Source: Eubacterium sp. (GTDB lineage Bacteria; Bacillota; Clostridia; Oscillospirales; Acutalibacteraceae). Taken from it: 64,000 nucleotides of DNA. The position numbers and the translations under genes are program-made. This document shows positions 6,926 through 23,210 of this stretch, one piece after another; within the stretch, counting starts at the first letter, position 1; every line of letters starts with the position of its first letter. The stretch spans positions 1 to 64,000 of the forward strand of contig JAFSRN010000016.1 in NCBI GenBank assembly GCA_017446095.1, in the 5' to 3' direction. The notes under the pieces were generated by a model. That model searched no databases, was not told where the DNA came from, and was given only the letters and a program-made list of their open reading frames with translations.

Positions 6926-6963
6926 GGCATATTTTAATTTTTGAGCCACTAATAAGTGAAAGG
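6926..6963 (+). promoter_or_regulatory. Putative ECF-sigma promoter, copy 1 (sigma operon)
   Basis: GGCATA at 6926-6931, 15 bp, then CACTAATAAGTGAAAGG from 6947. It is one of four copies with identical 15-bp spacing in the element, so autoregulation of the sigma gene is likely. The downstream half contains a small inverted repeat CACT-AATA-AGTG. Confidence 0.75.
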
Positions 6964-6993
6964 CAAAAGTTGTTATGTGGGGAGGTGATGCTG

Positions 6994-7548
6994 TTGAGTC
7001 AGGTTAAGCAGAAAGCGGATACACTGCTAACTGAAGCGTACGAAAAGTATAATACATTACTTATTAAGTTTTGTTATACAAAGCTGCTTGAGGATAAAAC
7101 CGTGGCAGATGATATTGCGCAGGAAGCGCTACTTGTGTATTATAAGCGAATGCTTAAAGGCGAAGAATTTGAAAAGCCGTTAGCGTTTCTGTATCAGACT
7201 GCTGCAAATCTTTGCAAGAACGCAAATAAGAAAGCAACCAAACACGCTATGCGTACCGTTTCGCTTGAAGATGCAACCGACGTAGCAGCACAAGAGGAGA
7301 ATTCACGGGCAAGCGAACTCGACTACGATGAAATCAAAGAAAGGCTGTTAGAAAAACTAACAGAAGAGGAATTACGGCTATATCAACTTAAATATGTGGA
7401 AGATAAATCACTAAAAGAAATAGCCGAAATGATGGACATTACGCCAAATGCAGTAGCCAAACGAACGCAGCGGCTCAGGTCAGTAATTAAAGAATTAGTT
7501 GAGCCGACATTATCAATCTACGAAAGGGGGGGTTACATATGGACGTAA
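6994..7548 (+). CDS. ECF-family RNA polymerase sigma factor
   Basis: 184 residues. I favour the TTG at 6994 (8 bases after GGAGG at 6981-6985) over the ATG at 6988, which is too close to that site. Region 2 (core binding and -10 recognition) is about residues 10-70, with ADDIAQEALLVYYKRM; region 4 is about 130-180, with the helix-turn-helix KSLKEIAEMMDITPNAVAKR that reads -35 DNA. No region 3, as usual for ECF factors. The stop overlaps the next gene by 10 bp, a classic sigma/anti-sigma coupling. Its probable targets are the four GGCATA-N15-CACTAA sites in this element. Confidence 0.92.
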   Translation: MSQVKQKADTLLTEAYEKYNTLLIKFCYTKLLEDKTVADDIAQEALLVYYKRMLKGEEFEKPLAFLYQTAANLCKNANKKATKHAMRTVSLEDATDVAAQEENSRASELDYDEIKERLLEKLTEEELRLYQLKYVEDKSLKEIAEMMDITPNAVAKRTQRLRSVIKELVEPTLSIYERGGYIWT

Positions 7549-8264
7549 GAGTTAATGAAAGAACAATATCAAAAGCGTTAAACGATGAAAAGTTTAAGGC
7601 TGAATTAATTGAATATCTTAACAGCGTAGTTGATGAAGAGCTCGAAAAAGGCGAACATATGGACACCGACCTTATCACGGATTGTACCGAGATGATTTTT
7701 GAGCTTGATGAAGGCGATATTGACAGCATCATTGCAGACGAAAAAAGCAGCGAAAACATAATTAATTTTGAGCAGGCGAAGCGCAGTGCTGAAAAGGCAA
7801 AGCCAAAACACACGGTTATCAGAATGCGCCGCATAATAGTAGTTGCCGCAATCCTGATGATTTTAGGCACAGTAACAACCGCGTTTGCAGATGATATAAT
7901 TGATTATTTCACATATATCAGTCAGCTGCTTTTCAGCGCAGCCGATGAAAGCGGAGAAGAAAGCAATGTAAGAATGATTTGGTACTTTGAAAAAGACGGC
8001 ACAAATGTTAATTACAACATTCATAGTGAAGATGAAATTGACTTATCTCAATTTGAAATCGGCGTGTGGTATGAGCAAGAACTTAATACAGAAATCGATT
8101 TGTCAAAACCTGATGAGGTTGTTCCCATCAGCGAATGTACGGTAAAGGAGCCTCGTAAAACAGTTGACGATGAAGGCAATCCAATTTTGGTTGTGGTGAT
8201 AGTATATCGCGATACTTCAACGGAAATAGAATACAGACTGATTGATGAACAAAAGAAGGAGTAG
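7539..8264 (+). CDS. Single-pass membrane anti-sigma factor
   Basis: 241 residues; ATG at 7539 after a long G-rich ribosome site. Residues 1-95 are cytoplasmic, acidic and helical; about 99-116 (IIVVAAILMILGTVTTAF) is the one membrane span; the remaining 125 residues are outside and beta-rich. This is the layout of anti-sigma factors that hold an ECF sigma factor at the membrane until an outside signal arrives. I do not see a classical zinc-binding ZAS motif, so the sigma-binding part may be of a different class. It overlaps the sigma gene and is 2 bp from the LRR gene, so all three should be co-expressed. Confidence 0.8.
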   Translation: MDVRVNERTISKALNDEKFKAELIEYLNSVVDEELEKGEHMDTDLITDCTEMIFELDEGDIDSIIADEKSSENIINFEQAKRSAEKAKPKHTVIRMRRIIVVAAILMILGTVTTAFADDIIDYFTYISQLLFSAADESGEESNVRMIWYFEKDGTNVNYNIHSEDEIDLSQFEIGVWYEQELNTEIDLSKPDEVVPISECTVKEPRKTVDDEGNPILVVVIVYRDTSTEIEYRLIDEQKKE

Positions 8265-8266
8265 TT

Positions 8267-11110
8267 ATGAAAAACACAGTATTAAGTACAAAAAAGGCAA
8301 TCTCATTATTACTGGCACTGATTATGGCAGTGTCAATGATACCGAGCTTTGAGATGGCGGCATACGCCGAGGAATTATCCTCAGGAAGCTGCGGCGAAAA
8401 TGTGACATATAGCTTTGATTCAAAAAGTGGAACGCTTACAATTAGCGGAACGGGAGATATGTATAATTATATTTCTCCAAACCCAGTCTCTCCGTTTAGA
8501 AGAAATCAAAAATTAACAAATATAATAGTTCAAAGCGGCGTAACGAGTATTGGTGGATGGGCTTTTGAAGGCTGTTCAAACTTGACAAGCATAACGATTC
8601 CAAACACTGTAACGAGTATAGGCGAATATGCGTTTTTTATGTGCAAACGATTAACAGATGTAACTATACCAAACAGTGTAATGAGCATAGGTTTAGCTGC
8701 GTTTAATGAATGTTTATCCTTAACAAGTATAACAATACCAAGCGGCGTAACGCGCATCAACAATTATACGTTTAGCAATTGTAGCCGTTTAACAAGTGTA
8801 ACAATACCAAGCAGTGTGACAAGTATTGGTGATTATGCATTTAGCTATTGTTCAGGTTTGAGAAGTATAACAATACCAAACAGCGTAACAAGTATAGATG
8901 GTTATGCATTTTACGATTGTTCGGGCTTGACAAGTATAACAATACCAAACGGCGTAACGAGTATTGGTAATTTTGCATTTGACGGCTGTTCGGGTTTGAC
9001 AAGTGTAACAATACCAAGCGGTGTAACGAGTATTGGTATTTATACATTTTCCCTTTGTTCAAGCTTAACAAGTGTAACGATACCAATCAGTGTAACAAGT
9101 ATAGGCGCTCATGCATTTTATTCTTGTTCAAGCTTAACAAGTGTAACGATACCAAGCAGTGTAACAAGTATAGGCGCTTATGCATTTTATTCTTGTTCAA
9201 GCATGACAAGAATAGATGTTGACAGCAATAATGGAGCATATTGTTCAGTGGACGGTGTTTTGTATAATAAAAGCAAAACAGAGATTATTAAGTTTCCTGC
9301 AAATAACGGTATTACAAACTACGAGTTACCAAATACTGTTGAAAACATAGGAAATGAGGCATTTGATAGTTGTAAAAAATTAACAAGTATAACAATACCC
9401 AGCAGTGTAACGAGTGTCGGTGATTCTGCATTTGCTCGTTGTTTAGGTTTGGCAAGAATAAATGTTGACAGCGATAATGAGAAATACTGTTCAGTAGACG
9501 GTGTTTTGTATAATAAAAGCAAAACAAAGATTATTAAGTTCCCTGCAAATAACGGTATTACAAACTACGAGTTACCAGATACTGTTGAGAACATAGGAAA
9601 TGCAACATTTGCAGATTGTTCAAGTTTGACAAATATAACAATACCAAGCAGTGTAACGAGTATTGGTGATTATGCATTTGTCGATTGTTCAGGTTTAACA
9701 AGTGTAACGATACCAAGTAGCGTAACAAGTATGGGTTATTTTGTTTTTGATGTTTGCAGTTCATTAAATATTGTTAACTTTGGCGGTTCAAAACAACAGT
9801 GGAACAGTTTAGACGCCTCAATCGCTCCTGCACAGACAACAAGCGGCTTGGTATATGTAAAATGCAGTGACGGAACGATTGTTTATTATGATCATTCAAG
9901 GTATATTGTAAAAGATGATGTTGTTTACAGTGAAGACGGAAAGACGCTTGTTAAGTACCCTGAAGAAAAGACCGACGCTTCTTTCACTATCCCAGACACT
10001 GTTGTGACTATTACCGATGATGCTTTTGAAAACACCTATCTTAAAGAAGTTATCATTTCAGAAAATGTTATGAAAATCGGCAAAAACGCTTTTAGTAAAT
10101 GTCCTAATCTTGCAACTGTTAAATTCGCAGATGGCTCACAGCTTACAACGATTAACGAGGGTGCATTTAAGGACACAAGTATTGAATCTGTTACTTTGCC
10201 TGCAAACCTTACTTATATTGGCACCGAAGCGTTTAATACAAAAAATCTCACTTATGTAGACGCCCTAGGAGCAGAAAACATAAAGTTTGAAAGCAATTGT
10301 TTTGGAAACAACAACCCCTATTTGCTTTTTAAGGAGAACAGCGCAACCAGTAGTAGTGCCAAAGGTGTAAGTACCAAAAAAATTTGCTTTACAGTTGTTG
10401 ACCAGGTGTACACAGGTGATCCTGCCAAACCAACCGTTGTTATTGTAATTGACGGAAAAACTCTGCAAGAAGGCACGGATTATGTGGTTACATATGATAA
10501 TAAGACAGACATAGGCGCGGGGAAAATCGTCGTTACAGGCAAGGGCAAATACAAGGATGTTATTAAAAGTTCAACGGTTAAATACCATATATTTAAAATT
10601 ACTGCTGTTAAATTGAGCAAATATAGTTTTACATATAACGGCAAAGTTCGCAAGCCGACCGTAACAAATGTAATCATTAACGACGGCAAAGGAAACAAAA
10701 CGCTGACCAAAAAATACTATAAAGTAACATTCACAAAGGGCTGCAAAAAAGTCGGCACTTATAATGCCAAGGTTACACTACGCAATGGTTACAGCGGCAA
10801 CAAAACCGTGAAGTTTAAGATTAATCCTGATAACGCAACAAAAATGTCGCTGTCGTCTGGTAAAAAGAAATTAACTGTAAAATGGAAAACGGCAAAGCAG
10901 GCAAGCGGCTATCAGCTTCAGTATTCAACCAGCAAGAACTTTAAGAATGCAAAAAAAGTTAATGTTAAAGGTGCAAAGAAAACGGGCAAAACAATTAAGA
11001 AGCTCAAGAAGGGTACGAAGTATTATGTTCGTATTCGAACATACAAGATTGTAAAAGGTAAAACGTATTATTCGAGTTGGTCAAAAGCCAAGACCGTAAA
11101 AACTAAATAA
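8267..11110 (+). CDS. Secreted BspA-type leucine-rich-repeat protein with C-terminal Fn3-like domain
   Basis: 947 residues. Signal peptide 1-34 ending AYA; then a short beta cap (CGENVTYSFDSKSGTLTISGTG) and a run of 23-residue LRR_5/BspA repeats of the form LTSITIPNSVTSIGDYAFYDCSG from about 80 to 500. Two near-identical non-LRR inserts (CSVDGVLYNKSKTEIIKFP) break the array. Residues about 700-860 hold beta-sandwich repeats (YTGDPAKPTVVIVIDGKTL and a related copy), and the last 95 residues are a lysine-rich Fn3-like domain ending SSWSKAKTVKTK. BspA-type proteins often bind host proteins or other bacteria. Third gene of the sigma operon, so its expression is presumably tied to the same signal. 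Confidence 0.9.
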   Translation: MKNTVLSTKKAISLLLALIMAVSMIPSFEMAAYAEELSSGSCGENVTYSFDSKSGTLTISGTGDMYNYISPNPVSPFRRNQKLTNIIVQSGVTSIGGWAFEGCSNLTSITIPNTVTSIGEYAFFMCKRLTDVTIPNSVMSIGLAAFNECLSLTSITIPSGVTRINNYTFSNCSRLTSVTIPSSVTSIGDYAFSYCSGLRSITIPNSVTSIDGYAFYDCSGLTSITIPNGVTSIGNFAFDGCSGLTSVTIPSGVTSIGIYTFSLCSSLTSVTIPISVTSIGAHAFYSCSSLTSVTIPSSVTSIGAYAFYSCSSMTRIDVDSNNGAYCSVDGVLYNKSKTEIIKFPANNGITNYELPNTVENIGNEAFDSCKKLTSITIPSSVTSVGDSAFARCLGLARINVDSDNEKYCSVDGVLYNKSKTKIIKFPANNGITNYELPDTVENIGNATFADCSSLTNITIPSSVTSIGDYAFVDCSGLTSVTIPSSVTSMGYFVFDVCSSLNIVNFGGSKQQWNSLDASIAPAQTTSGLVYVKCSDGTIVYYDHSRYIVKDDVVYSEDGKTLVKYPEEKTDASFTIPDTVVTITDDAFENTYLKEVIISENVMKIGKNAFSKCPNLATVKFADGSQLTTINEGAFKDTSIESVTLPANLTYIGTEAFNTKNLTYVDALGAENIKFESNCFGNNNPYLLFKENSATSSSAKGVSTKKICFTVVDQVYTGDPAKPTVVIVIDGKTLQEGTDYVVTYDNKTDIGAGKIVVTGKGKYKDVIKSSTVKYHIFKITAVKLSKYSFTYNGKVRKPTVTNVIINDGKGNKTLTKKYYKVTFTKGCKKVGTYNAKVTLRNGYSGNKTVKFKINPDNATKMSLSSGKKKLTVKWKTAKQASGYQLQYSTSKNFKNAKKVNVKGAKKTGKTIKKLKKGTKYYVRIRTYKIVKGKTYYSSWSKAKTVKTK

Positions 11111-11122
11111 TACCTTCCCACT

Positions 11123-11156
11123 GACTCGTCGGGCTACGGCTCGGCGGGTCTTTTTT
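11123..11156 (+). terminator. Terminator of the sigma-LRR operon
   Basis: 12-bp stem with three wobble pairs (11123-11134 with 11139-11150) followed by six T. The same hairpin recurs at 12380-12407 and, shortened, at 22842-22866. Confidence 0.85.
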
Positions 11157-11186
11157 CTGTATAAAAAATTATTTGAAAAAAGTTTT

Positions 11187-11224
11187 GGCATATTTCTATT
11201 TTTGTGCCACTAATAAGTGAAAGG
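11187..11224 (+). promoter_or_regulatory. Putative ECF-sigma promoter, copy 2
   Basis: GGCATA at 11187-11192, 15 bp, then CACTAATAAGTGAAAGGG from 11208. It is nearly identical to copy 1 and lies 37 bp before the ribosome site of the next gene. Confidence 0.75.
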
Positions 11225-11262
11225 GTTAAAAACCTAAATAATCAACACTTGGAGGGGTAAAA

Positions 11263-11496
11263 ATGAGAACACTTTATCAGCAGCATATGAGAAAGGTGAT
11301 AATCTCGCTTGTATTAATCGTGGCAACTTTTTTCGGCGCGTTTCAGCTGTTCTTTAATGAAGAGATTTCAAAAAAGTACGTTCCGCAGAACACGGCGATT
11401 TCGTCAGCTATTGAAACGGTTCAAAAAGAGAAAAATGATTTTATAAATCAGATAAATTCTATTGAAAACGGCATAAACAATTCATTTAATTTTTAA
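11263..11496 (+). CDS. Small membrane protein, unknown
   Basis: 77 residues with a strong GGAGG eight bases upstream (11251-11255). Basic N-terminus, one membrane span at about 11-31 (VIISLVLIVATFFGAFQLFF), then an outside helical coiled-coil tail. First gene after ECF promoter copy 2. No family recognised; the position suggests a signalling or envelope-stress role in the sigma regulon. Confidence 0.65.
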   Translation: MRTLYQQHMRKVIISLVLIVATFFGAFQLFFNEEISKKYVPQNTAISSAIETVQKEKNDFINQINSIENGINNSFNF

Positions 11497-11510
11497 CGGA
11501 GAAAAATAAA

Positions 11511-11615
11511 ATGTTAAGAAGAATTTATACAGTACATAAGAGCAATCAGCTCGACAGAGAAATCACTCGTCATAGAGTAAATATGCTATTTATCAGTTAC
11601 AGTGTAGCTGCTTAA
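11511..11615 (+). CDS. 34-residue basic peptide
   Basis: Frame MLRRIYTVHKSNQLDREITR... with ACGGAG upstream, 14 bp after the preceding gene and 35 bp before the next. Arg/His-rich N-terminal two thirds, hydrophobic end. A similar-sized basic peptide (MLNKIFKTRQEKREE...) follows ECF promoter copy 4. Short enough that chance is possible, but ribosome site and repeated placement favour translation. Confidence 0.45.
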   Translation: MLRRIYTVHKSNQLDREITRHRVNMLFISYSVAA

Positions 11616-11650
11616 ATATAAATAACAATTCATTTTAAAGGAGAAAGAAA

Positions 11651-12361
11651 ATGACGACAAACACAATTAAAGCAAAAACAACAAAAATCACAAGCTTATT
11701 TTTGGCACTCGTTATGATGATGAGTGCATTCGCGGGCTTCAGCATTACCGCCGAAGCGAAGGAATGGAAGAAGAGTAACGTTCTTCTTGCGCAATACTCA
11801 GGACAGTTAGTTAGCTATGAGAATGACGATGAATACACAATCACAATAAGCTCATTAGATTACGTGGAAATGGTTATTACAAGCAATATTCCGATGGACG
11901 TGGATATTGATCCTGATCTTTACGCATATCCGTTTAAATCATTCTTTGCACGTGATGTAACTAAATACACATTTAGATTTTTTGAAAGCAGAGGAACTTT
12001 TACAATCAGAATTTCAAAGGGAATGGCAGCAGGCTTTAATTCAACTGGCAATTACAAAATCAAATTTTACAACAGAACACCGAAGCCGAGCGTAAAGAAG
12101 CTCACAGCGCAGAAAAAGGCATTTGCAGTAGAGTGGGGCAAAAAGTCAGGCGTAACAGGCTATCAGATTCAATACTCAACAGATGCTAACTTCAGGAACG
12201 CTAAAAAGGTAACAGTTAAGGGCGCAGATAACACTTCAAAGAAAATCTTAAAGCTTAACAAGGGTAAAAACTACTATGTTCGTGTTCGCACCTTCAAGAC
12301 CTATGACGGAAAGAGATATTACAGCTCGTGGTCTGCAAAGAAAACAGTAATAACTAAATAA
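11651..12361 (+). CDS. Secreted protein with C-terminal Fn3-like domain
   Basis: 236 residues, AAAGGAGAAAG ribosome site. Signal peptide about 1-36 (hydrophobic core ITSLFLALVMMMSAFAGFSI, end AEA). Residues about 40-135 form a beta-rich domain similar in pattern to pre-peptidase C-terminal/bacterial sugar-binding sandwiches (not firmly identified). Residues about 140-236 are the lysine-rich Fn3-like module (GYQIQYSTDANFRNAKKVTV ... YYSSWSAKKTV). Part of the ECF copy-2 transcript. Likely a surface-attached adhesin or binding protein. Confidence 0.8.
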   Translation: MTTNTIKAKTTKITSLFLALVMMMSAFAGFSITAEAKEWKKSNVLLAQYSGQLVSYENDDEYTITISSLDYVEMVITSNIPMDVDIDPDLYAYPFKSFFARDVTKYTFRFFESRGTFTIRISKGMAAGFNSTGNYKIKFYNRTPKPSVKKLTAQKKAFAVEWGKKSGVTGYQIQYSTDANFRNAKKVTVKGADNTSKKILKLNKGKNYYVRVRTFKTYDGKRYYSSWSAKKTVITK

Positions 12362-12379
12362 TAATTATGCCTTCCCACT

Positions 12380-12407
12380 GACTCGTCGGGCTGCGGCTCG
12401 GCGGGTC
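12380..12407 (+). terminator. Terminator-like hairpin, second copy
   Basis: Same 12-bp imperfect stem as at 11123, including the preceding CCTTCCCACT, but the T tract has decayed to TTATAAA. Probably duplicated together with the promoter that follows it, since both copies sit about 22-37 bp before an ECF promoter. Confidence 0.65.
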
Positions 12408-12428
12408 TTATAAATATTGAAAAAATAT

Positions 12429-12466
12429 GGCATATTTCTATTTTAGTGCCACTAATAAGTGAAGGG
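12429..12466 (+). promoter_or_regulatory. Putative ECF-sigma promoter, copy 3
   Basis: GGCATA at 12429-12434, 15 bp, CACTAATAAGTGAAGGG from 12450. It precedes the zinc-ribbon and CAP-protein block. Confidence 0.72.
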
Positions 12467-12480
12467 TTAAGAAAAACAGA

Positions 12481-12512
12481 AGCGTTTAAGCCGCAACAAG
12501 TGGCTAAACGCT
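12481..12512 (+). promoter_or_regulatory. Leader hairpin after ECF promoter copy 3
   Basis: AGCGTTTAAGCC at 12481-12492 pairs with GGCTAAACGCT at 12502-12512 (one bulged A). It lies within the untranslated leader and lacks a T tract, so it is more likely an mRNA-stability or regulatory hairpin than a terminator. Confidence 0.5.
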
Positions 12513-12581
12513 AAACAATCAATTAATAAAACACAGTAAGTTGGTCAAAAACAAATTGAGTTTATACAGGAGGATATTAAC

Positions 12582-13301
12582 ATGGATGTAAACTATATTT
12601 TTTTACCGTTTTTAGGAATAGTGCTTTTGGCAATGCTTTTCTGCCTTTCAGTTGCCATAAAACAAATAAACGCAATAAAAGATTCAATGAACGGAAAGAT
12701 TATTGTGCCCGAATGTCCTCCTCAGATAATAAACGATTATTCTGATTGTGACATTGTTATGCCGAGTTATTCGTGTCCAGAGTGTGGAGGAGTCATTGAG
12801 CAGGGCGCATATTCATGCTCATTTTGCGGACACAAACGTCCTGAAAGCGTGATTAGATATCAAAAGACCTTTCATAACCGCTTTAATATCGGCTTGACAA
12901 GTCAGTATTACAAGGCTAATGCCGACATTTCAAAAGAGGTCAATGCGTGGTTCCTGTCGCATAGCAATCTCGAGAATGTGAACATCAATATGGAATACAA
13001 TACAAATTTGACTAATCGTTTACTTAAAAAGGTTACCGTATCCTTTACAATAGGCGAAAAGGAAAACAATACTCTATACGGAGTTACACCAATTTATAAT
13101 GGTTTTGGGCTTTTTTGGCAAAAATCTGCTCAAGATGTTTTTAACTCGTGGAAAAGTCACAACCCAAACTGCCTTGTACTTAATATAACGGGTGGCACAA
13201 CAAACCAGACGTTAGTTTCTGTTTCATCAGGTGGATTGCCTCTGGTATTTGCAAATAACAATGGAGCTCATTTTATTGCATTTAAGACAAATAGAAACTA
13301 A
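12582..13301 (+). CDS. Membrane-anchored zinc-ribbon protein
   Basis: 239 residues; AGGAGG seven bases before the ATG. One N-terminal span at about 6-27 (IFLPFLGIVLLAMLFCLSVAI) without a cleavage site. Residues about 65-88 hold a zinc ribbon, CPECGG ... CSFCGH. The rest (about 95-239) is a beta-rich domain of unknown family. Orientation is uncertain: a zinc ribbon fits the cytoplasm best. First gene behind ECF promoter copy 3; it could be a regulon component that senses or assembles surface proteins, but that is inference. Confidence 0.65.
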   Translation: MDVNYIFLPFLGIVLLAMLFCLSVAIKQINAIKDSMNGKIIVPECPPQIINDYSDCDIVMPSYSCPECGGVIEQGAYSCSFCGHKRPESVIRYQKTFHNRFNIGLTSQYYKANADISKEVNAWFLSHSNLENVNINMEYNTNLTNRLLKKVTVSFTIGEKENNTLYGVTPIYNGFGLFWQKSAQDVFNSWKSHNPNCLVLNITGGTTNQTLVSVSSGGLPLVFANNNGAHFIAFKTNRN

Positions 13302-13370
13302 AGCAAAAAACGCTAAAACCTTCGTAAAAAGTTTTGTTGATACTAAAAGAAAAAACAGTGAGGTTTTTAT

Positions 13371-14729
13371 ATGAAAAAGATTATAAGTTTATTACTCTCG
13401 TTTACACTGGTGTTTTCAGCGCTCGGCGGCACATTGCAGAGTTATGCTGCCGAAAACGATTATGAGTACATTACGGTTAAGGCAAAATTCAACCAAACAG
13501 AAGCGAGAAAGATGCTTGGTTATGTCAATAGCTTCAGAACGGGCGACGAGGCTTGGTTTTGGCGAAACTACAAAAAAGTTTACGCTAAAAACGCATTCGG
13601 TGACAAAGAGCATGTAGGAACTAAGCTCGTGTACGATTACAGGCTCGAACAATACGCAATGCAAAGAGCTATAGAGCTATACTTCAATTTGGAAGAGCAT
13701 ATTAGACCTAACGGAACGTATTGCCTTGAGGTTGTCGAAGAAGAAAACCGCAACAACGGAAAGAGCTTTTGTGTAGAAAATATTGTCGAAGTACCTGCAT
13801 CTTATAAGTACGGGGCTAAAGATATTTTCAACATATTCAAGCAGGATGTAAGCAAGCCGATTGCTGGTGGCTTAGCTTCACAGGGAAACAGAATTAATAT
13901 GCTGTCTCCTTACACCACCTTTGCCTGTGCGTATTGTGAATATGACGGTATGGCTTATTGGGTTCAGGCATTCGGTTATATACCTTTCGATGACGCTTTT
14001 GAGAAAACCGATCCCGTAGATACAACTAAAAAGATGACGATTGAGCTTTTGTGCGAAATGGGCTATTCTTTCAGACGCAAGGACGAAGATATTTCCAAAA
14101 TATCAATCTACGAAAAGGACTCGATTGCAGTTCCGTCAGTATATTCCAACAAGCACTATGGATATCTCTATAACAAGAGGAAAAAGCTCGAGGTTAAATT
14201 AACAACTAACAACAATAATGCTGTCATTAAAAACGGAAAAATCGTCGGCAAAACTGCGGGTACCACTGTGTTCACTGCGTCTGGCGGTGACTTGCCCGAG
14301 GGAAGAACTGTAGAACTGAAAGTAACTGTTAAGCACAAATACAAGCTCATTAAACACATAAAGGCTACTTCTAAAAAGGAAGGCAAAAAGGTATATAAGT
14401 GCGAGTGCTGCGGTCATAAAAAGACTGTAAAGCTTCCAAAGCTTCCCCCTGTACCGAAAAACATCAAGGTTAAAGGCGGAAAAGGCTGTTTTATCCTCAC
14501 ATGGGACAAAGTAAAGGGAGCCGCTGGATACGGGATCCACTATCTTCAAGTGGAAAACCCGCAAAGAGGTGGCTCTTCTGGTTGCGATGGAGATAAAACA
14601 AAATACAAAGGAAAATATGGTTTAGACAGTGGAAAAACCTATAATGTTCAGATACGTTCTTATAAAATAGTTAATGGCAAAAAAGTGTTTTCCAACTGGT
14701 CTAAAAAGTACAAGGTAAAAATCAAGTAG
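13371..14729 (+). CDS. Secreted CAP/SCP-domain protein with Fn3-like end, paralogue 1
   Basis: 452 residues. Signal peptide about 1-27 ending SYAA. CAP (cysteine-rich secretory/SCP-like) domain at about 38-215, with LVYDYRLEQYAMQRA, EEHIRPNGTYC and a GNRINMLSPY block. Then an Ig-like part (NNNAVIKNGKIVGKTAG), a CECCGHKKT cysteine knuckle at about 345, and the C-terminal Fn3-like module. Compared with its neighbour the conserved GHRINM His is Asn here. CAP proteins of bacteria have roles in binding or surface hydrolysis that are mostly unproven. About 11 bp separate it from its tandem copy; both should follow ECF promoter copy 3. Confidence 0.85.
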   Translation: MKKIISLLLSFTLVFSALGGTLQSYAAENDYEYITVKAKFNQTEARKMLGYVNSFRTGDEAWFWRNYKKVYAKNAFGDKEHVGTKLVYDYRLEQYAMQRAIELYFNLEEHIRPNGTYCLEVVEEENRNNGKSFCVENIVEVPASYKYGAKDIFNIFKQDVSKPIAGGLASQGNRINMLSPYTTFACAYCEYDGMAYWVQAFGYIPFDDAFEKTDPVDTTKKMTIELLCEMGYSFRRKDEDISKISIYEKDSIAVPSVYSNKHYGYLYNKRKKLEVKLTTNNNNAVIKNGKIVGKTAGTTVFTASGGDLPEGRTVELKVTVKHKYKLIKHIKATSKKEGKKVYKCECCGHKKTVKLPKLPPVPKNIKVKGGKGCFILTWDKVKGAAGYGIHYLQVENPQRGGSSGCDGDKTKYKGKYGLDSGKTYNVQIRSYKIVNGKKVFSNWSKKYKVKIK

Positions 14730-14740
14730 TGAGGTCTTAA

Positions 14741-16102
14741 ATGAAAAGAATTATAAGTTTATTGCTTTCGTTTGTGCTGATGTTTTCGGTTCTCTGTGGT
14801 ACGTTACAGAGTTATGCAGTAGAAAGCGATTATGAGTATCTCGCAATCAAGGTGAAATTTAACCAAACAGAAGCGAGAAAAATGCTTGATTTAGTTAATG
14901 AATTTCGTGCCAGTGATGAAACATGGTTCTGGCGTGATTATGAGAAAGTATACGCTGAAGATTTATTTAGCTATGACAAAGAACATGTATCTTCTCCGCT
15001 TGTGTATGATTACAGGCTCGAAAAATACGCAATGCAGAGAGCTGCTGAAATAGCAACAAGCGATATTGATCATTTCCGACCTAACGGAACATATTGCTTT
15101 TATGTTGTCGAAGAAGAGAATCGTAATGGTGGACGAAGCTTTGATGGCGAAAATGTTTCTGGTGTTCCAACAAAATGGGGATACGGTGCTAAAGAAGTTT
15201 TTCTTCAGTTCAAAGAGGATATTTCTAAACCAACAACGGGTGCTAACAACGAGCAGGGACATAGAATTAATATGATGTTCCCCCATCGCACCTTTGCTTG
15301 TGCTTGTTGCGAATACAAAGGAGTTACCTATTGGGTACAAGCCTTCGGAACAGATCCTTTTGAAGACGCTTTCGTGGAAACAGAGGCAGTCAATACAACA
15401 AAACAAATGACTGTTGAGTTCTTGTGCGATACTCAGTACACTTTCAGACGCAAAGATGAAGATATATCATCATTATCAGTCTACGAAAACTCTTCAGTCG
15501 CTGTTCCATCGCTTTATGTCAACAAAACATACGGTAATATTATTAATAAAAGAAAGAAATTAAATTCTACATTAACTACAAACAATAATAATGCTGTGAT
15601 TAAAGACGGAAAAATTGTAGGCAAAACTGCAGGAAAGACAGTGATTACCGCGTCATCTGGTGATTTGCCAGAAGGAAAAACTGTTAAGTTAAAAGTAACT
15701 GTTAAGCACAAATACAAGCTCATTAAGCACATAAAAGCCACCTCGAAAAAGGAAGGTAAAAAAGTGTTTAAGTGCGAATGCTGCGGTCATAAAAAGACTA
15801 CAAAGCTCCCAAAGCTTACACAAACGCCTACCAACATTAAAGTAAAAGGCGGCAAAGGATATTATATCTTAACTTGGAAAAAGGTTAAGGGTGCCGCTGG
15901 ATACGGCATTAAACACCGCGAGGTCGGCAATCCACAAAAAGGATGTAATGGTGGTTGTAAGGGCGACAAAACAAAATATAAAGAAACATATTGTTTAGAA
16001 AGTGGAAAAACCTACAAGGTTCAAATTCGAGCATATCGAATAGTAAATGGCAAAAAGGTGTTTTCTGAGTGGTCAAAACCCTACAAAGTTAAAATTAAGT
16101 AA
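14741..16102 (+). CDS. Secreted CAP/SCP-domain protein with Fn3-like end, paralogue 2
   Basis: 453 residues, collinear with the preceding gene and clearly a tandem duplicate (shared KVKFNQTEARKML, DYRLEKYAMQRA, KHKYKLIKHIKATSKKEGKK). Signal peptide about 1-27. The CAP domain keeps DHFRPNGTYC and GHRINMMFPH, so the family His is intact here. CECCGHKKT knuckle and Fn3-like C-terminus as in copy 1. Divergence is greatest in the CAP domain (for example the region after RPNGTYC) and least in the linker and knuckle, suggesting different binding partners with a common surface-attachment tail. Confidence 0.87.
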   Translation: MKRIISLLLSFVLMFSVLCGTLQSYAVESDYEYLAIKVKFNQTEARKMLDLVNEFRASDETWFWRDYEKVYAEDLFSYDKEHVSSPLVYDYRLEKYAMQRAAEIATSDIDHFRPNGTYCFYVVEEENRNGGRSFDGENVSGVPTKWGYGAKEVFLQFKEDISKPTTGANNEQGHRINMMFPHRTFACACCEYKGVTYWVQAFGTDPFEDAFVETEAVNTTKQMTVEFLCDTQYTFRRKDEDISSLSVYENSSVAVPSLYVNKTYGNIINKRKKLNSTLTTNNNNAVIKDGKIVGKTAGKTVITASSGDLPEGKTVKLKVTVKHKYKLIKHIKATSKKEGKKVFKCECCGHKKTTKLPKLTQTPTNIKVKGGKGYYILTWKKVKGAAGYGIKHREVGNPQKGCNGGCKGDKTKYKETYCLESGKTYKVQIRAYRIVNGKKVFSEWSKPYKVKIK

Positions 16103-16109
16103 CATTTTA

Positions 16110-16136
16110 CAAGCTCTCATTCGAGGGCTTGTTTTT
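16110..16136 (+). terminator. Terminator after the CAP genes
   Basis: CAAGCTCTC at 16110-16118 pairs with GAGGGCTTG at 16123-16131, followed by TTTTTCTTG; 8 bp after the CAP gene. Confidence 0.85.
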
Positions 16137-16197
16137 CTTGACTTATGTTTTAAACATAAGCAACATTATTAGCTAAACAACGAATATGAAAAAATAA

Positions 16198-16290
16198 TCA
16201 CAATTTCTTGTGATTGGTCATCAAAAACGTTGATACGATGTAGCGTATGCGCTACAATAAATATATCTCGTATTGACGAGATATATTTAT
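16198..16290 (+). promoter_or_regulatory. Sigma-A promoter with upstream palindrome and perfect +1 hairpin, copy B
   Basis: Palindrome TCACA-ATTTCT-TGTGA at 16198-16213; TTGATA at 16230-16235, 17-bp spacer, TACAAT at 16253-16258. It is followed at once by a perfect 14-bp hairpin: ATAAATATATCTCG at 16257-16270, loop TATTGA, complementary arm at 16277-16290. The hairpin begins within the -10 box, so the transcript would start inside it. It could protect mRNA or form a protein-binding cruciform. The same layout occurs at 4573-4655. Confidence 0.75.
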
Positions 16291-16307
16291 TTTTTGGAGG
16301 ATAGCGC

Positions 16308-16541
16308 ATGAGCAAACGAATAAAAATGAGAAGAATACCAAAAGCAAGAGTCAGGCTTACTGAACAGGAATTTAACGAGCTTCTGCAGAAACCGTATTTG
16401 ACAGTTGAGGATGTGCAGCCCTTTTTGGAAGAGAGTAACCCTGACTACGATGAGGATTTTGAGTGGAAATTGCACGAGGATCTCGCAAAGGGAATGATAA
16501 GCGATGAAGTATTTGACATAATCTCAGGTATTGAAAATTAA
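16308..16541 (+). CDS. Small acidic protein, full-length paralogue of 4685-4810
   Basis: 77 residues with GGAGG seven bases upstream. Basic N-terminus (MSKRIKMRRIPKARVRLTEQ) then a strongly acidic helical part (EESNPDYDEDFEWKLHEDL). Conserved LTEQEFNELLQK in both copies. No family recognised. Charge split and the autonomous promoter with operator-like palindrome suggest a DNA-associated regulator of the element, possibly acting on the TCACA...TGTGA sites; unproven. Confidence 0.6.
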   Translation: MSKRIKMRRIPKARVRLTEQEFNELLQKPYLTVEDVQPFLEESNPDYDEDFEWKLHEDLAKGMISDEVFDIISGIEN

Positions 16542-16672
16542 GGGCGGGTCACCGTCTTTAATTTTACTTTTTTGAGTATTAATATTAGGGTTTTGAAAAT
16601 GCATTAAACTTGGCTGAAAAAGGTTCAAAAAATACAGTATAAATTACAACGAAGGGTTAAAGAGGTAGACAA

Positions 16673-17359
16673 ATGATTTATGGTTATACAAGAATATCAA
16701 CGAATAAACAAAACATTGAACGCCAGATTAGAAATATAAGAAAAATATATCCTTCTTCTGAAATAATTAAAGAAGTTTACACGGGGACTAAAACATTCGG
16801 AAGAACCAAGTGGAACGCATTGATGAAACGGGTTGAAAGTGGCGATACTATTGTTTTTGATTCGGTCAGCCGTATGAGCAGGAATGCTGAAGAGGGATTT
16901 GCAATTTATAAAAAGCTATTCAACAACGGTGTTGAGTTGGTCTTTCTTAAAGAGCCTATGATTAATACTGATACTTTTAGAAAAGCGTTGGAAAGTAAAA
17001 TAGAACTAATAAATGATGATGTAGATATCATTCTAAAAGCCGTTAATGATTATCTTATGAAGCTCGCTGAAAATCAAATCTATATCGCATTTGAACAAGC
17101 TCAAAAGGAAGTAGATGATTTACATCAGAGAACCGTTGAGGGAATGATGACTGCGAAGCTTAACGGAAAACAAATAGGCAGAAAGGCGGGCACAAAAATA
17201 GTAACAAGAAAAAGCATAGTCGCAAAAGAAGGAATAAAAAAGTATTCCATAGATTTTAACGGTTCGCTGAATGATATAGAGTGTATGAAAATGGTTGGAA
17301 TTTCAAAAAACACATTTTATAAGTATAAACGAGAGCTCAAATCAGAAAGTTGTTTGTGA
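16673..17359 (+). CDS. Serine recombinase (resolvase/invertase family)
   Basis: 228 residues. Resolvase N-terminal domain with IYGYTRISTNKQNIERQIR: the nucleophile is Ser9, with Arg7 beside it; SGDTIVFDSVSRMSRNAEEG carries the further catalytic Arg/Ser cluster. A long helix (about 130-160) leads to a small C-terminal DNA-binding part with KMVGISKNTFYKYKREL helix-turn-helix. Size and layout are those of resolvases/invertases rather than large integrases. It may resolve multimers of the element or invert a segment nearby; no clear paired res sites were seen. Confidence 0.88.
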   Translation: MIYGYTRISTNKQNIERQIRNIRKIYPSSEIIKEVYTGTKTFGRTKWNALMKRVESGDTIVFDSVSRMSRNAEEGFAIYKKLFNNGVELVFLKEPMINTDTFRKALESKIELINDDVDIILKAVNDYLMKLAENQIYIAFEQAQKEVDDLHQRTVEGMMTAKLNGKQIGRKAGTKIVTRKSIVAKEGIKKYSIDFNGSLNDIECMKMVGISKNTFYKYKRELKSESCL

Positions 17360-17378
17360 AAAAAACAAAAAAAGTTTT

Positions 17379-17416
17379 GGCATATTTTTAATTTGTGACC
17401 ACTAATTAATGAAAGG
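17379..17416 (+). promoter_or_regulatory. Putative ECF-sigma promoter, copy 4
   Basis: GGCATA at 17379-17384, 15 bp, CACTAATTAATGAAAGG from 17400. The downstream half differs from copies 1-3 (TTAATG for TAAGTG), so strength may differ. It lies 20 bp after the recombinase stop. Confidence 0.68.
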
Positions 17417-17436
17417 ACAATTTGGAGGTAAAAAAT

Positions 17437-17535
17437 ATGTTAAACAAAATCTTTAAAACGCGTCAGGAAAAAAGAGAAGAAATTGATAATACAAGACGCA
17501 GAGTAGATGAACTAATTGAAAAGTATTCAAAGTAA
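17437..17535 (+). CDS. 32-residue highly charged peptide
   Basis: Frame MLNKIFKTRQEKREEIDNTR... with GGAGG at 17424-17428, eight bases upstream, directly after ECF promoter copy 4. Nearly all charged, likely one amphipathic helix. Comparable to the 34-residue peptide at 11511; both start ML-(R/N)-(R/K)-I. Possibly a leader or small regulator of the regulon. Confidence 0.5.
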   Translation: MLNKIFKTRQEKREEIDNTRRRVDELIEKYSK

Positions 17536-17547
17536 TGGAGGCAGATT

Positions 17548-17910
17548 ATGAAAAGGTTTGTAATAGCTTTCTTATCGGTAATTATTGCTGTTTCATTTGC
17601 TGCCTGTGCAAATAAATCCACACAAAACGAACCGACTGAACAAACGACAGCATTGAGTACAACAGAGGCATCTAATATTGAAAAGAGCGAAGCTGAGACA
17701 GCAGCAACAGTAATTGATACCGAAACTGAAAAATCAATATACGATAACTCGTTAGACGAGCCTTCTTATGAACCTCAGTATCACACTTGTCCTGCTTGCG
17801 GAGGAAGCATGGGGCAGTTTGTTGTTACATCTGTTGATGCAAACGGAATTCCGTTTCAGGAGTGGATCCCTTGCGGGACCTGCGGCGGTTCAGGCGTTAT
17901 ATACTATTAA
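17548..17910 (+). CDS. Lipoprotein with DnaJ-like cysteine pairs
   Basis: 120 residues; GGAGG upstream. Lipoprotein signal with lipobox VSFAAC (Cys20). A Thr/Glu-rich linker (about 22-75) leads to a C-terminal zinc-binding-like segment CPACGGS ... CGTCGGSG, the CxxCxGxG pattern of DnaJ zinc fingers. Outside the membrane such a segment might bind metal or unfolded protein, or be a disulphide pair. No overall family recognised. Behind ECF promoter copy 4. Confidence 0.7.
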   Translation: MKRFVIAFLSVIIAVSFAACANKSTQNEPTEQTTALSTTEASNIEKSEAETAATVIDTETEKSIYDNSLDEPSYEPQYHTCPACGGSMGQFVVTSVDANGIPFQEWIPCGTCGGSGVIYY

Positions 17911-17941
17911 TTTATATCACTAATAAAAAGGAGTAAAAGAT

Positions 17942-19804
17942 ATGAAAAAAACTATTAGCTTATTATTAGCAATTATTATGATTGTCAGCGTATTCGGTAG
18001 TGTTAACCTTACCGCGTATGCGGCTACCGTAAAAAGTTCAGATATCCTGAATTTTTCGCAGCATGTTAAGACGGTGTATAATGCAGCGTTGAATCGTAAA
18101 GACGTTACAATAACCGTGTATTCTAAATCAAGCGCGGGGACAGACGTTGACTATGTTATTTATAGCGCGGCAACAAGCGATGATTACAGCACATCAAGCA
18201 AATCGGGTTATCATATGCATCCAGGAGGCTGGTCTTCTGGTATCGGTACTCTCAAAAGCGATAAGAGCGGCTACAAAAAATTCCGTATCACTTATAATCT
18301 TAAAGGTGGCTACGTTACTACAATCGATATGGAAAAAGAATTGTTTGCAGCAGTTTCAAAAATTGTAAGCAATCTTGACTTAAAGAGCAGCAAGGTATCT
18401 GATTACACTAAGATTTACAGAATATACAATTTCCTTTGCAGCTCTGTAAAATATGATTACGATAATTATAATAGCAGTAATTACGGATTAAGGTGCAATG
18501 CTTACGCAGCGCTTGTAAACGGCACCGCTGCGTGCGGAGGCTATGCAGACGCATTCAACATCCTTGCAAAAGAAGCAGGACTCAAATCATGTGTTATTAT
18601 AGGCCCCGATCACGCATACAACATTGTAAAGCTCGGTGGCAAGTGGTACAACCTTGATGCCACCTGGGATTCCGAATACTTCAGCAGCGGCACATATCAT
18701 TTTTTCCTTCAGAGCAATGCTGACTTTACTAACTGCAAACAGTCAAAATATCACCAGCGTAGTGGAAAGTTTAACAGTGTAGAGTTTAACAAAGCACACC
18801 CGATGGCTACTAAATCATACAAGGGCAAAACCGTAAAAATTAGCGCCTGCAGTCACTCTTCTAAAGTTGATTTAAAAGGCAGAAAGTCAACTTGCAAAGC
18901 AAGGTCGTTCGGCGGCGGAAAGTATTGCAAATCCTGTGGCGCACTGGCAGGTGGCAAAAGGGGTAAATTTGCGTCTTGTAAAAAGGAGTGGAAAACGGAC
19001 AGAGATGCTACCTGCACAAAAAATGGCAGCAAGGAAAACTACTGCGTTTACTGTAAAAAGGTTTATTCCACTGCGGCAATTGCAAAGAAGGCTCATAATT
19101 ATAAGAGCACAACTGTTAAGGCAACCTGCTGGTCAGACGGTTACACTGCACAGGTTTGCACGATGTGCGACGCAATTAAAAGCGGCACAAAGAAAACTCT
19201 GCCGAAACTTAACCATGTTGCAGATAAGGTTTATTCCGTAGAGAGTGAACCGACCTGCACGCAGACAGGTGTTCGCATTATCCACTGCAAACTGTGCGAC
19301 GCTAAAGTTTACGATTACCCTGCAATCGACAAAAACAATCACAGGTGGGATAGCGGCAAGGTTACCGTTAATCCTACTGCAACTAAAGATGGAACAAAGA
19401 TTTATACCTGCATAAGATGCAAGAAAACCAAGACTGAAACCCTGCCCGCAACGGGTATAGCAACTAAAACTGAAACTGTTTCTGATCAAGTAGAGTTTAC
19501 TTCAAGCAAGTACAATCCAACCACTAACAAGCGAACACTCACTTGGAACATGGTTGAAGATTGCGACGGTTACATTTTGCGCATATCAAAAGTGGCTGAT
19601 TTCACCGAAAAAACTGGTTTGATTCTTCTTGAGGGTAATGACCGTAACACTTATGTTACAGAAACCTTCCCCGATGAAGTGTATTATGCAAGGGTTGAAG
19701 CTTACAAAGTTATTGACGGCAAAAAGACAGGAATATCCAGAAGCAAAACACGCAAGCTTTATGTTAAAGACGGTAAAGGCTATTATCAGACATTATCTAA
19801 ATAG
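17942..19804 (+). CDS. Secreted transglutaminase-like protein with Cys-pair repeats and Fn3-like end
   Basis: 620 residues. Signal peptide about 1-26 ending AYA. Transglutaminase-like papain-fold domain at about 130-260 with a full triad: Cys198 (TAACGGYADAFN), His224 (GPDHAYNIV) and Asp239 (NLDATWD). Residues about 300-510 contain five CxxC knuckles (CKSCG, CVYCKK, CTMCD, CKLCD, CIRCKK), each followed by a similar beta stretch, a repeat pattern common in clostridial surface proteins. Residues about 520-620 are an Fn3-like domain. The enzyme could crosslink or cleave peptide bonds at the cell surface. Part of the ECF copy-4 operon. Confidence 0.87.
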   Translation: MKKTISLLLAIIMIVSVFGSVNLTAYAATVKSSDILNFSQHVKTVYNAALNRKDVTITVYSKSSAGTDVDYVIYSAATSDDYSTSSKSGYHMHPGGWSSGIGTLKSDKSGYKKFRITYNLKGGYVTTIDMEKELFAAVSKIVSNLDLKSSKVSDYTKIYRIYNFLCSSVKYDYDNYNSSNYGLRCNAYAALVNGTAACGGYADAFNILAKEAGLKSCVIIGPDHAYNIVKLGGKWYNLDATWDSEYFSSGTYHFFLQSNADFTNCKQSKYHQRSGKFNSVEFNKAHPMATKSYKGKTVKISACSHSSKVDLKGRKSTCKARSFGGGKYCKSCGALAGGKRGKFASCKKEWKTDRDATCTKNGSKENYCVYCKKVYSTAAIAKKAHNYKSTTVKATCWSDGYTAQVCTMCDAIKSGTKKTLPKLNHVADKVYSVESEPTCTQTGVRIIHCKLCDAKVYDYPAIDKNNHRWDSGKVTVNPTATKDGTKIYTCIRCKKTKTETLPATGIATKTETVSDQVEFTSSKYNPTTNKRTLTWNMVEDCDGYILRISKVADFTEKTGLILLEGNDRNTYVTETFPDEVYYARVEAYKVIDGKKTGISRSKTRKLYVKDGKGYYQTLSK

Positions 19805-19863
19805 GATTTGTTTGAGCGAAAACACACATAGTGATATTATAAAGCTTATGGAAAGGGTTTAAG

Positions 19864-21453
19864 ATGAAAAAGATTATCAGTGCTGTATTAGCAATTATTA
19901 TAGCCGTAAGCAGCTTCAGCGCAGGGCTCACAGCATTTGCGGCTGACACGGTTTACGACATCACAGGCTTTCGCCTGTATGAGAAAGAGGACGAATACGG
20001 AACTCCTTATCTTCATATTGAATGGGATAAGAACAAAGGTCTGAGCAAAGACAATTACGATTTAATATGTAAAATCGGTAAAAAAACAGGTGATATAAAA
20101 GATGTTGATGAGCACGCTGAAACAATAAAGGAAAAAAAGGGGAAGCTATATGTGGAATTTGAACTTTTAGGAAACCTTGATTACAGCTTTTGGCTGCAAT
20201 ACTGGGGTGAAGATGATAACGCCAAATTCAATTCGCCAACGCTTACCCATTCAACTTCAGGCGATGTGCCGAGAGTAAGCTATATCTCTCACCCTAAAAA
20301 GTACACAATAAATGTTTATTCCAAATACAAGATGAGTTACACTCACATCTATAAGTACAATTCCAAAAAGAAAAAATACGAATTTTTCAAAAAAGGAAGT
20401 ATGTACGGCAACGACTATAAATTCACTAAAAAAGAAAAGTACAAAATCAAAGCAGTTTCGTGTTTCAAAGGCCAGAAATTTGAATCGAAGTTTTCAAATT
20501 TTATCGTTCCGAGAAACGACTGCAATAAGCAAATAAAAATCAATTCTGCAAAATCCAATAAGAACGGCAAGATAACCGTTAAGTGGAAAAAGGTAAAGGG
20601 TGCAAGCGGATATGTTATAAATACGATTTCCTGCAGCGATAAGTTTATTCCCTATCATGTTGACATGGATAATGAGGATAATTTCGGTACCAAACAGGGT
20701 GAAGAATCGATTTACAGCAGCGAATATGTTAAAGTACCAAACGGGAAGACGACATCAAAAACCATCAGCGAATTTGAGGGCGTTACCTATTGGGTGTGCG
20801 TAACACCTTATTTCATTAAGGGTAACGGTTATTGCTTCGGAAAAACTTCATCGTTGATTAAAGTGTGCGTGAAATCCAAGCTCAAGGGAAAAATCAATAC
20901 AAATAAGGTATTAAATTCTGCAAAGCTTAAGCCCCAGAAAGCAGATAATAAGCAGCTTGACAAGATACTTGATATAATACTTAAAAAATATACCAATAAG
21001 GATATGACTACGGCTCAGAAGGTATACGCCTGTTATAAGTATGTAAGCAATGAACGCTTCAGCACATACGGTGTTAAGGTTAAAGCAAACGATTGCCCCT
21101 TTACTACTGAAGAAGATGCGTTAGAACTGCTGAGAACTAAAAAGGGCGATTGCGTCAGCTATAACTCTCTAATTATAATGCTGATGAAAAAGATCGGATT
21201 TACAAAGCTCTATTTAGCAGGTGGCACAACAACGAAAAGCGGCGGTGGATGGACACAGCATTTCTGGTGCGTTGCAAAAATTAACGGCAAGTTCTATATA
21301 TTCGATCCAAGACTTGCAATCTATAGCAGCGACAAAAACACAAAAATGTATTTCTGCGTCCCTGTTTCTGACAAGAATTCTGTTGCACAGAAATACAGAT
21401 ATTATTTGCCATATTTTGTATTTGGAAAGAATAATGACTTTGCTTTAGCTTAA
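19864..21453 (+). CDS. Secreted Fn3/transglutaminase-like protein
   Basis: 529 residues. Signal peptide about 1-28 ending AFAA. Two Fn3-like segments (about 30-120 and 215-335, the latter with ITVKWKKVKGASGYVIN) and, at the C-terminus, a transglutaminase-like domain with Cys430 (KKGDCVSYNSL), His466 (TQHFWCVAKINGKFY) and Asp481 (FDPRL). The domain order is the reverse of the preceding gene. Lies 59 bp downstream of it and is last in the ECF copy-4 block. Confidence 0.83.
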   Translation: MKKIISAVLAIIIAVSSFSAGLTAFAADTVYDITGFRLYEKEDEYGTPYLHIEWDKNKGLSKDNYDLICKIGKKTGDIKDVDEHAETIKEKKGKLYVEFELLGNLDYSFWLQYWGEDDNAKFNSPTLTHSTSGDVPRVSYISHPKKYTINVYSKYKMSYTHIYKYNSKKKKYEFFKKGSMYGNDYKFTKKEKYKIKAVSCFKGQKFESKFSNFIVPRNDCNKQIKINSAKSNKNGKITVKWKKVKGASGYVINTISCSDKFIPYHVDMDNEDNFGTKQGEESIYSSEYVKVPNGKTTSKTISEFEGVTYWVCVTPYFIKGNGYCFGKTSSLIKVCVKSKLKGKINTNKVLNSAKLKPQKADNKQLDKILDIILKKYTNKDMTTAQKVYACYKYVSNERFSTYGVKVKANDCPFTTEEDALELLRTKKGDCVSYNSLIIMLMKKIGFTKLYLAGGTTTKSGGGWTQHFWCVAKINGKFYIFDPRLAIYSSDKNTKMYFCVPVSDKNSVAQKYRYYLPYFVFGKNNDFALA

Positions 21454-23204: not shown

Positions 23205-23210
23205 AAATAT

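Follow-up and report, generated by a model that had tools for sequence, protein, structure and literature searches.

We analysed a window of 64,000 nt from a Eubacterium sp. assembly (GCA_017446095.1, positions 1 to 64,000 of contig JAFSRN010000016.1). An island of about 21 kb within this window carries a gene for an extracytoplasmic function (ECF) sigma factor, a gene for a putative membrane anti-sigma factor, a gene for a leucine-rich repeat (LRR) surface protein and four copies of the sequence GGCATA-N15-CACTAA, which resembles a promoter. The sigma locus and the four copies are made up as follows.

6878..6906, + strand: sigma-A-like promoter TTGATT-N17-TATAAT with TG before the -10 box (pattern match just upstream of copy 1)
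6926..6952, + strand: putative ECF promoter copy 1, -35 box GGCATA, N15, -10 box CACTAA (exact match, alignment, relatives)
6994..7548, + strand: ECF sigma factor, 184 aa, regions 2 and 4 (TIGR02937, PF08281, PF04542)
7539..8264, + strand: putative membrane anti-sigma factor with a helical N-domain, a transmembrane (TM) helix, an AxA site and an extracellular beta domain (alignment, low-confidence model, sub-threshold DUF4179)
8267..11110, + strand: 947-aa BspA-type LRR surface protein with C-terminal Fn3 (PF13306, E 1e-136)
11123..11150, + strand: terminator-like hairpin separating the LRR gene and the sigma operon from copy 2 (sequence scan)
11187..11213, + strand: putative ECF promoter copy 2 (exact match, alignment)
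12429..12455, + strand: putative ECF promoter copy 3 (exact match, alignment)
17379..17405, + strand: putative ECF promoter copy 4 (exact match, alignment)

The initial annotation had described an ECF sigma gene overlapping a membrane anti-sigma gene, with a large LRR gene behind them, and this arrangement was found again: the sigma gene (6994-7548) overlaps the anti-sigma gene (7539-8264), and the LRR gene follows (LRR_5, E 1e-136). The sigma gene starts with TTG behind GGGGAGGTG. Its product reached 65.9 bits against TIGR02937 (cut-off 42.9) and exceeded the cut-offs of PF04542 and PF08281; containing just sigma regions 2 and 4, the protein is an ECF sigma factor, and the island system is an ECF sigma system, to which we give no numbered ECF group. 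A PDB search at E 1e-5 returned SigW (5wuq, E 6e-6) as the sole match. Neither the sigma-I C-terminal domain nor the RsgI family was among the Pfam matches or the 25 of 65 NCBIfam matches that were shown, no direct alignment having been made.

By eye, the eight aligned anti-sigma homologs have in common a helical N-domain and a single TM stretch that is immediately followed by a small-x-A site, AxA in the window protein. In the model of the window protein (mean predicted local distance difference test score, pLDDT, 61.7) helices lie between residues 7 and 86, followed by a helix at 93-112, taken as the TM helix, and a beta domain. DUF4179 matched the TM region with 17.5 bits, below the Pfam cut-off of 30.1; in seven homologs this domain was below the cut-off in five and absent from the matches in two. 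A Foldseek search with the low-confidence model gave no match at E 0.001.

The four copies of GGCATA-N15-CACTAA reported at 6926, 11187, 12429 and 17379 are all exact, lie on the + strand and have 15 nt between the boxes every time, and 100 dinucleotide-preserving shuffles did not yield a single match. An extension after the -10 box, also reported before, is present as TAAGTGAARGG in three copies; copy 4 differs and has the weaker extension TTAATGAAAGG. The longer element common to the aligned copies reads GGCATATTT-N12-CCACTAA-TAAGTGAARGG. An AAC-type -35 box is typical of ECF promoters, though not obligatory, and is also the -35 type of SigV and SigP; the island -35 box is not of this type. 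In the 2.09-Mb host genome no exact match exists beyond the four copies, and the motif, rather than being common across the host chromosome, is confined to the island. Allowing one mismatch in the core gave 8 matches in the host genome versus 20 for the reversed control, so that mismatched core matches are meaningless; four such sites lie outside the island, and their spacers look unlike those of the four copies by eye.

A scan of genome contigs found sigma homologs at 82-91% identity in five loci, at 48% in one and at no more than 30% in ten (loci, genomes and contigs are denoted below by L, G and C numbers). The five close relatives, which together with the window form clade A, come from Clostridia-type assemblies, several of them titled rumen or ruminant samples. 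The fetched stretch of each contains just two exact motif copies, the first directly upstream of the sigma gene and the second 5.5-8.1 kb beyond it; the 48% locus, L036, has no exact copy. In all six clade-A loci the motif lies 32-42 nt before the sigma start, a placement suited to autoregulation, and the spacer sequence varies. The order sigma, anti-sigma, LRR is kept in the window and the five loci, the LRR region of L031 consisting of two open reading frames (ORFs).

These relatives also bear on the idea that the repeats, instead of being promoters, were left behind by a spreading short repeat or a recent duplication. Copies 2 and 3 do have a further upstream block in common, a terminator-like stretch included, and may be one duplicated unit. 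Copies 1, 2 and 4, however, share little outside the element, and its retention at 82-91% sigma identity, with a varying spacer and at a narrow distance from the sigma start, makes this explanation very improbable.

Across 80 genomes of the genus the exact core gave 26 matches in 10 genomes and the reversed pattern gave 24, so single core matches are at chance level. When the 26 were scored on 12 further consensus positions, 19 scored 8-12 and seven scored 1-5 (two in G415 and one each in G021, G431, G468, G435 and G457). The 19 full-form copies, which were chosen by their GGCATA and therefore have it in 19 of 19 cases instead of an AAC-type -35 box, are distributed over six genomes (4, 3, 5, 2, 3 and 2 copies), exactly those with a sigma factor of at least 83% identity. 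Looking for the motif near homologous sigma genes, a check proposed in the initial annotation, thus found it in 6/6 genomes with this sigma factor and 0/74 others; the corresponding chance of 1 in 300,500,200 under random placement overstates the evidence, because the genomes are related and the 12 positions were derived from these very sites. Among 398 genomes of the family, 23 had an exact core match, a single one each except in the host, and many genomes also matched the reversed control.

Six of the 19 clade-A sites precede the sigma gene and 13 lead other genes. A tiny peptide (see below) is led by the sites in L032, L033, L035, L089, L095 and L110, and a 32-aa peptide by copy 4; a 76-77-aa membrane peptide follows copy 2 and the L034 site, and a membrane protein copy 3. 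A lipoprotein-like protein is led by the L100 site, and signal-peptide-like proteins by those in L031 and L093 (the latter by eye). The sigma gene does not share a contig with four of the 13 non-sigma sites (G434 C20, C55 and C103; G439 C10; draft assemblies), for which reason the regulon may reach beyond the sigma cassette. The downstream block of G402 encodes Fn3-type and LRR proteins and one protein that by eye is transglutaminase-like. In the island the genes behind copies 2 to 4, together with the recombinase gene upstream of copy 4, are the following.

11263..11496, + strand: 77-aa membrane peptide following promoter copy 2
11511..11615, + strand: 34-aa member of the tiny-peptide family (E 1.1e-17 to the tiny-peptide alignment, of which it is itself a row)
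11651..12361, + strand: Fn3 protein with signal-peptide-like start (PF00041, E 2e-5)
12582..13301, + strand: membrane protein with N-terminal TM (by eye) and weak zinc-ribbon match (E 0.004)
13371..14729, + strand: CAP-domain protein 1 with signal-peptide-like start (PF00188, E 5.5e-4, just at the cut-off)
14741..16102, + strand: CAP-domain protein 2 with signal-peptide-like start (PF00188, E 2.3e-8)
16673..17359, + strand: serine recombinase of the DNA-invertase type (PF00239, E 1.1e-20; phrog_125)
17437..17535, + strand: 32-aa peptide resembling the tiny-peptide family (not matched by the tiny-peptide profile search)
17548..17910, + strand: lipoprotein-like protein with CxxC motifs (below NCBIfam cut-offs)
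17942..19804, + strand: transglutaminase-like protein 1 (PF01841, E 1.1e-9)
19864..21453, + strand: transglutaminase-like protein 2 (PF01841, E 7.3e-9)

The proposal of a sigma-linked regulon of exported proteins is supported by these findings, the full-form motif being confined to genomes with this sigma factor. That every copy precedes genes for exported proteins holds for copies 2-4, while copy 1 precedes the sigma gene itself. As to the cargo labels given earlier, LRR, Fn3, the CAP pair and the two transglutaminase-like proteins stand, and the zinc ribbon is only a weak match. In L034 the same promoter is followed by a homolog of the 77-aa peptide (56% over 72 aa), and in L071 a 74-aa peptide of similar appearance (by eye) lies behind a GACATA-type promoter.

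The sigma factor had been thought to insulate the island from the host sigma-A. This appears doubtful, as a sigma-A-like promoter lies before the sigma gene and a TATAAT is found within 70 nt upstream of 5/6 clade-A sigma-gene copies versus 1/13 other copies (Fisher p 0.003). Sigma-A-type matches as such are common by chance around the sigma locus (43 versus 33.2 in shuffles). Terminator-like hairpins show the opposite distribution, with none of the six sigma-gene copies and 9/13 others having one within 130 nt upstream (p 0.011). Our reading of this anatomy is that sigma-A would provide a basal supply of the sigma factor, to which autoregulation is added, followed by separate modules of terminator, promoter and cargo.

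A sigma-A-like promoter before copy 1 would also fit a different role of the repeat, namely that of an operator for a DNA-binding repressor or activator with sigma-A transcribing the genes, and a TGGC...GCCA dyad is indeed present in copies 1-3. The dyad is lost, however, in copy 4 and several relatives, and TATAAT precedes just one of the 13 non-sigma copies. Apart from sigma and anti-sigma no regulator gene was seen that is common to the loci; moreover, the boxes are always 15 nt apart, and the sigma tree is in part reflected in the variable bases. We rejected the operator since the dyad is not conserved, and regard it as improbable. Copies 1-3 can furthermore form a 4-bp stem (CACT-AATA-AGTG), as would be expected of a leader RNA element in place of a promoter. 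In copy 4, as in the copies before the sigma genes of L032, L033 and L034, this stem is disrupted, and an Rfam search of 6500-23300 gave only two tRNAs at gathering scores; on these grounds the hairpin was likewise rejected, and we consider it barely credible.

The sigma factor belongs to a wider family, with a homolog at E 1e-10 or better in 51 of the 80 genus genomes. Most homologs at 37-52% identity have GnYAYA-N15-nACTAn before their own genes. For 31 homolog rows the upstream 160 nt were considered and 30 were scored, L071 having no upstream DNA; 25 reached the full 11 of 11 points and three reached 10, compared with 77 of 5000 random stretches at 10 or more. Three homologs (37-39%) from other genera of the family, found among 250 genomes, scored 11, 11 and 10 and are spelled GTTACA-N15-GA(C/T)TA(C/T). 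As a negative control, 20 ECF genes at 32-39% identity were taken from a longer list for the genus; they scored 7-10, with one at 10 and none at 11 (L136 scored 8). Both the three homologs from other genera and this control are less circular than the scoring of the 30 homologs. In L123-L142, another ECF subfamily of the genus, GACTAC...ATATGAA is often seen by eye before the start, with a different -35 region.

In a tree of 28 sigma proteins the promoter label GGC/C marks one side of a branch (100/100), and GAT/T does likewise (100/96). The nine labels, that of L071 being taken from copies elsewhere on its contig as its own upstream region is cut off, require 10 changes on the tree versus a mean of 17.3 after shuffling, and none of 200 shuffles was as low. 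Within one promoter frame, sigma clades tend towards spellings of their own, which would amount to near-private codes. In region 4.2, lysine 156 (K156) occurs in 9/10 rows with G or T at the second -35 base and in 0/18 rows with A, which is suggestive of a link between this residue and the base.

The host itself seems to contain a second system of this kind. With one mismatch allowed, the extended general pattern GNYAYATT-N14-ACTA-N5-TGARRGG matched the host genome seven times and its reversed control not at all; four of the matches are the island copies and three lie at G000:C19, spelled GTCACA-N15-TACTA(A/C). Separate sigma, anti-sigma and LRR genes are present at the latter locus. There, one promoter precedes a 31-aa peptide; behind another comes a 69-aa protein (L075 7375-7640) that shares 49% identity over 57 residues with the anti-sigma N-domain (E 1e-13) and, as a stand-alone domain, could possibly be a soluble feedback inhibitor. 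Without mismatch the pattern occurs 27 times in 10 of the 80 genomes, again with no match in the reversed control; 24 of these matches share a contig with a family sigma gene, and three are in genomes with a clade-A sigma.

Several operons begin with a conserved peptide of 31-34 aa. Nine of these tiny peptides were aligned and gave the consensus MITRIYxxRxEERRITRRRVNMLFISYVVAA. A genus search with the alignment returned two weak matches and, in five genomes, 10 strong ones (E at most 1.5e-14); nine of the strong matches are rows of the query, only that at G439:C32 being new. In eight strong matches the start lies 44-52 nt behind a promoter; the other two come after the 76-77-aa peptide of the same stretch. 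All five genomes have a clade-A sigma, and the sixth clade-A genome (G435) had no match. Among five members of equal length we counted 77, 36 and 97 differences at codon positions 1, 2 and 3, the script having picked up seven of the ten peptides; since this is the pattern expected for coding sequence, the peptides look coding. We know of no description of this family. Our guess is that the peptide is a circuit part or is related to export.

Taken together, these results make it highly probable that the island encodes an ECF sigma/anti-sigma switch that regulates itself and controls a surface and secreted programme; it would belong to a family whose promoter codes are near-private. The island sigma factor would read GGCATA-N15-CACTAA as its -35 and -10 boxes. 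The sigma-A-like promoter would supply basal amounts of sigma and anti-sigma factor, and the membrane anti-sigma would hold the sigma factor until a cue from outside triggers cleavage of the anti-sigma. The AxA site, the sub-cut-off DUF4179 match and the RsiV/RsiP precedent suggest that cleavage is probably carried out first by signal peptidase, just outside the TM helix, and then by an intramembrane protease. The freed sigma factor would fire its own promoter and three more, and the expected output comprises the LRR surface protein, small peptides, the lipoprotein, and the CAP and transglutaminase-like proteins.

Several observations weigh against this reading. The family-wide TATAAT contrast is weaker (12/27 versus 5/23) in an automatic split, which misgrouped at least three sigma sites (L076, L144, L145) and included two false sites. 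The positions of both the 12-position and the 11-position scoring were chosen after many of the same sequences had been viewed, and two of the 30 homologs are without the element, namely L064 (score 9) and L056 (score 8). The labels GAC/G (5 changes) and GAT/G (4) are scattered and do not form single clades, so that "private" is not strict, and the K156 link amounts to 1-3 independent pairs and is not significant on the tree. Finally, the anti-sigma factor was assigned by position and architecture, its DUF4179 match being below the cut-off and Foldseek giving no match.

By analogy, the system would work like two known ones. In Clostridium thermocellum, the passages compared (PMC6056542) describe several paralogous sigma-I factors paired with cognate membrane RsgI anti-sigma factors; the sigma factors are autoregulated, divergence of the -35 bases keeps their regulons apart, and the outputs are extracellular proteins, as proposed here. 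Sigma-I differs, according to the same passages, by a C-terminal domain of its own and an A-tract within the -35 region; the island sigma matches ECF regions 2 and 4, and these passages mention neither a mobile element nor a tiny peptide. For SigV/RsiV and SigP/RsiP of Bacillus, the parts of the sources compared describe a membrane anti-sigma factor that is cleaved by signal peptidase and then by RasP (PMC6066255, PMC8844934); DUF4179 contains the RsiV signal-peptidase cut site (PMC6066255), and RsiP lacks this domain (PMC8844934). The island anti-sigma resembles RsiV in its AxA-like site after the TM helix and in the DUF4179 match over the TM region, which is below the Pfam cut-off and so does not make it an RsiV-type protein. 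The island differs from SigV and SigP in its cargo of LRR, CAP and transglutaminase-like proteins; genes related to lysozyme or beta-lactams were not recognised, no search aimed at them having been made. Sigma-like genes on mobile elements are also described for conjugative transposons of Clostridioides difficile (PMC7438776), compared here by description. Their promoter consensus remains to be identified according to the part of that source compared, unlike that of the island sigma factor, for which a consensus and targets are proposed.

In a literature search none of the matches listed described the present system, and none of the papers searched contained GGCATA, CACTAA and "sigma factor" together. 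New, in our view, are the promoter code and the way it diverges among homologs of a single genus, as well as the mobile example and the tiny peptides. As a more tentative reading, less likely than not, many homologous ECF switches of this genus, with one frame and diverging spellings, might allow separate surface programmes, one of them on an integrated mobile element, to coexist in one cell without cross-talk; the 31-34-aa peptides might act in the circuit, for instance as signal or feedback, and the soluble anti-sigma N-domain may add feedback. A promoter code for a little-studied sigma family of uncultured gut anaerobes would make regulons readable from assemblies, and the naturally diverged sigma-promoter pairs lend themselves to asking how paralogous sigma factors stay apart. 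The island is also a tangible case of an integrated element that appears to bring along a whole surface-protein switch, and exposes a tiny peptide family tied to putative ECF promoters.

The ends of the island and its genes for integration and putative replication are as follows.

2049..2104: left copy of a 56-bp direct repeat (att-like), island end, identical to 23119-23174
2280..3503, - strand: tyrosine integrase adjoining the left repeat (PF00589, E 6.1e-17; phrog_1, E 1.8e-39)
4757..5875, - strand: putative rolling-circle (HUH-type) replication protein (motifs FVTLTLK and QPHVHYILIG by eye)
23119..23174: right copy of the direct repeat, within the 3' end of a tRNA-Tyr gene (23120-23204, - strand; repeat and tRNA search)

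An integrated element of about 21 kb is well supported by the repeats at the 3' end of tRNA-Tyr, the adjoining integrase and the low G+C content (GC) between the repeats, and integrase and repeats are those of a tRNA-gene integrative element. All four putative ECF promoters lie inside the repeats. In 1-kb steps over the first 40 kb the GC is 0.32-0.42 between the repeats versus 0.42-0.56 outside, with exceptions of 0.40 at 26-27 kb and 0.33-0.37 at 34-37 kb. The Rep-like protein matched no NCBIfam, PHROG or Pfam family, and no relaxase was recognised between the repeats. Among the 80 genus genomes the integrase (E limit 1e-60) and the Rep-like protein (E limit 1e-20) occur in the host only, and at the limits used the latter has no relatives in plasmids, phages, viral contigs or the 79 other genus genomes. 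In the five close relatives the fetched stretches contain no integrase or Rep-like homolog and the neighbouring genes look chromosomal by eye. Relatives of the sigma factor were not confirmed in any viral contig and were not found in plasmids at E 1e-8. The regulon had been called mobile; for the island, its integrase and tRNA-Tyr repeats support an integrated, putatively mobile element, and mobility as a general trait of the regulon is not supported, the integrase and the Rep-like protein being found in 1/80 genomes.

Some further features lie in and around the island. An inverted repeat AGCGTTTAAGCC...GGCTAAACGCT was seen by eye at 12481-12512, between promoter copy 3 and its gene, and may be a small inserted element. 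The stretches 4569-4646 and 16194-16271, 11,625 bp apart, have pieces in common at identical spacing and sit upstream of a 77-aa ORF and the serine recombinase block; they are possibly a duplicated control or origin region. The stretch from the cargo genes to the right repeat also encodes a Fic-domain protein (21655-22821; PF02661, E 6.7e-14). Immediately beyond the left repeat, close to where the contig begins, lies a relaxase-like ORF (123-1526; HVDRGHMHNHF motif, by eye), perhaps part of a second, adjacent element. Outside the island, a CAP-Fn3 protein (31585-32703) and an LRR-like protein (34345-36849) have a C-terminal Fn3-like end that by eye resembles that of the island cargo.

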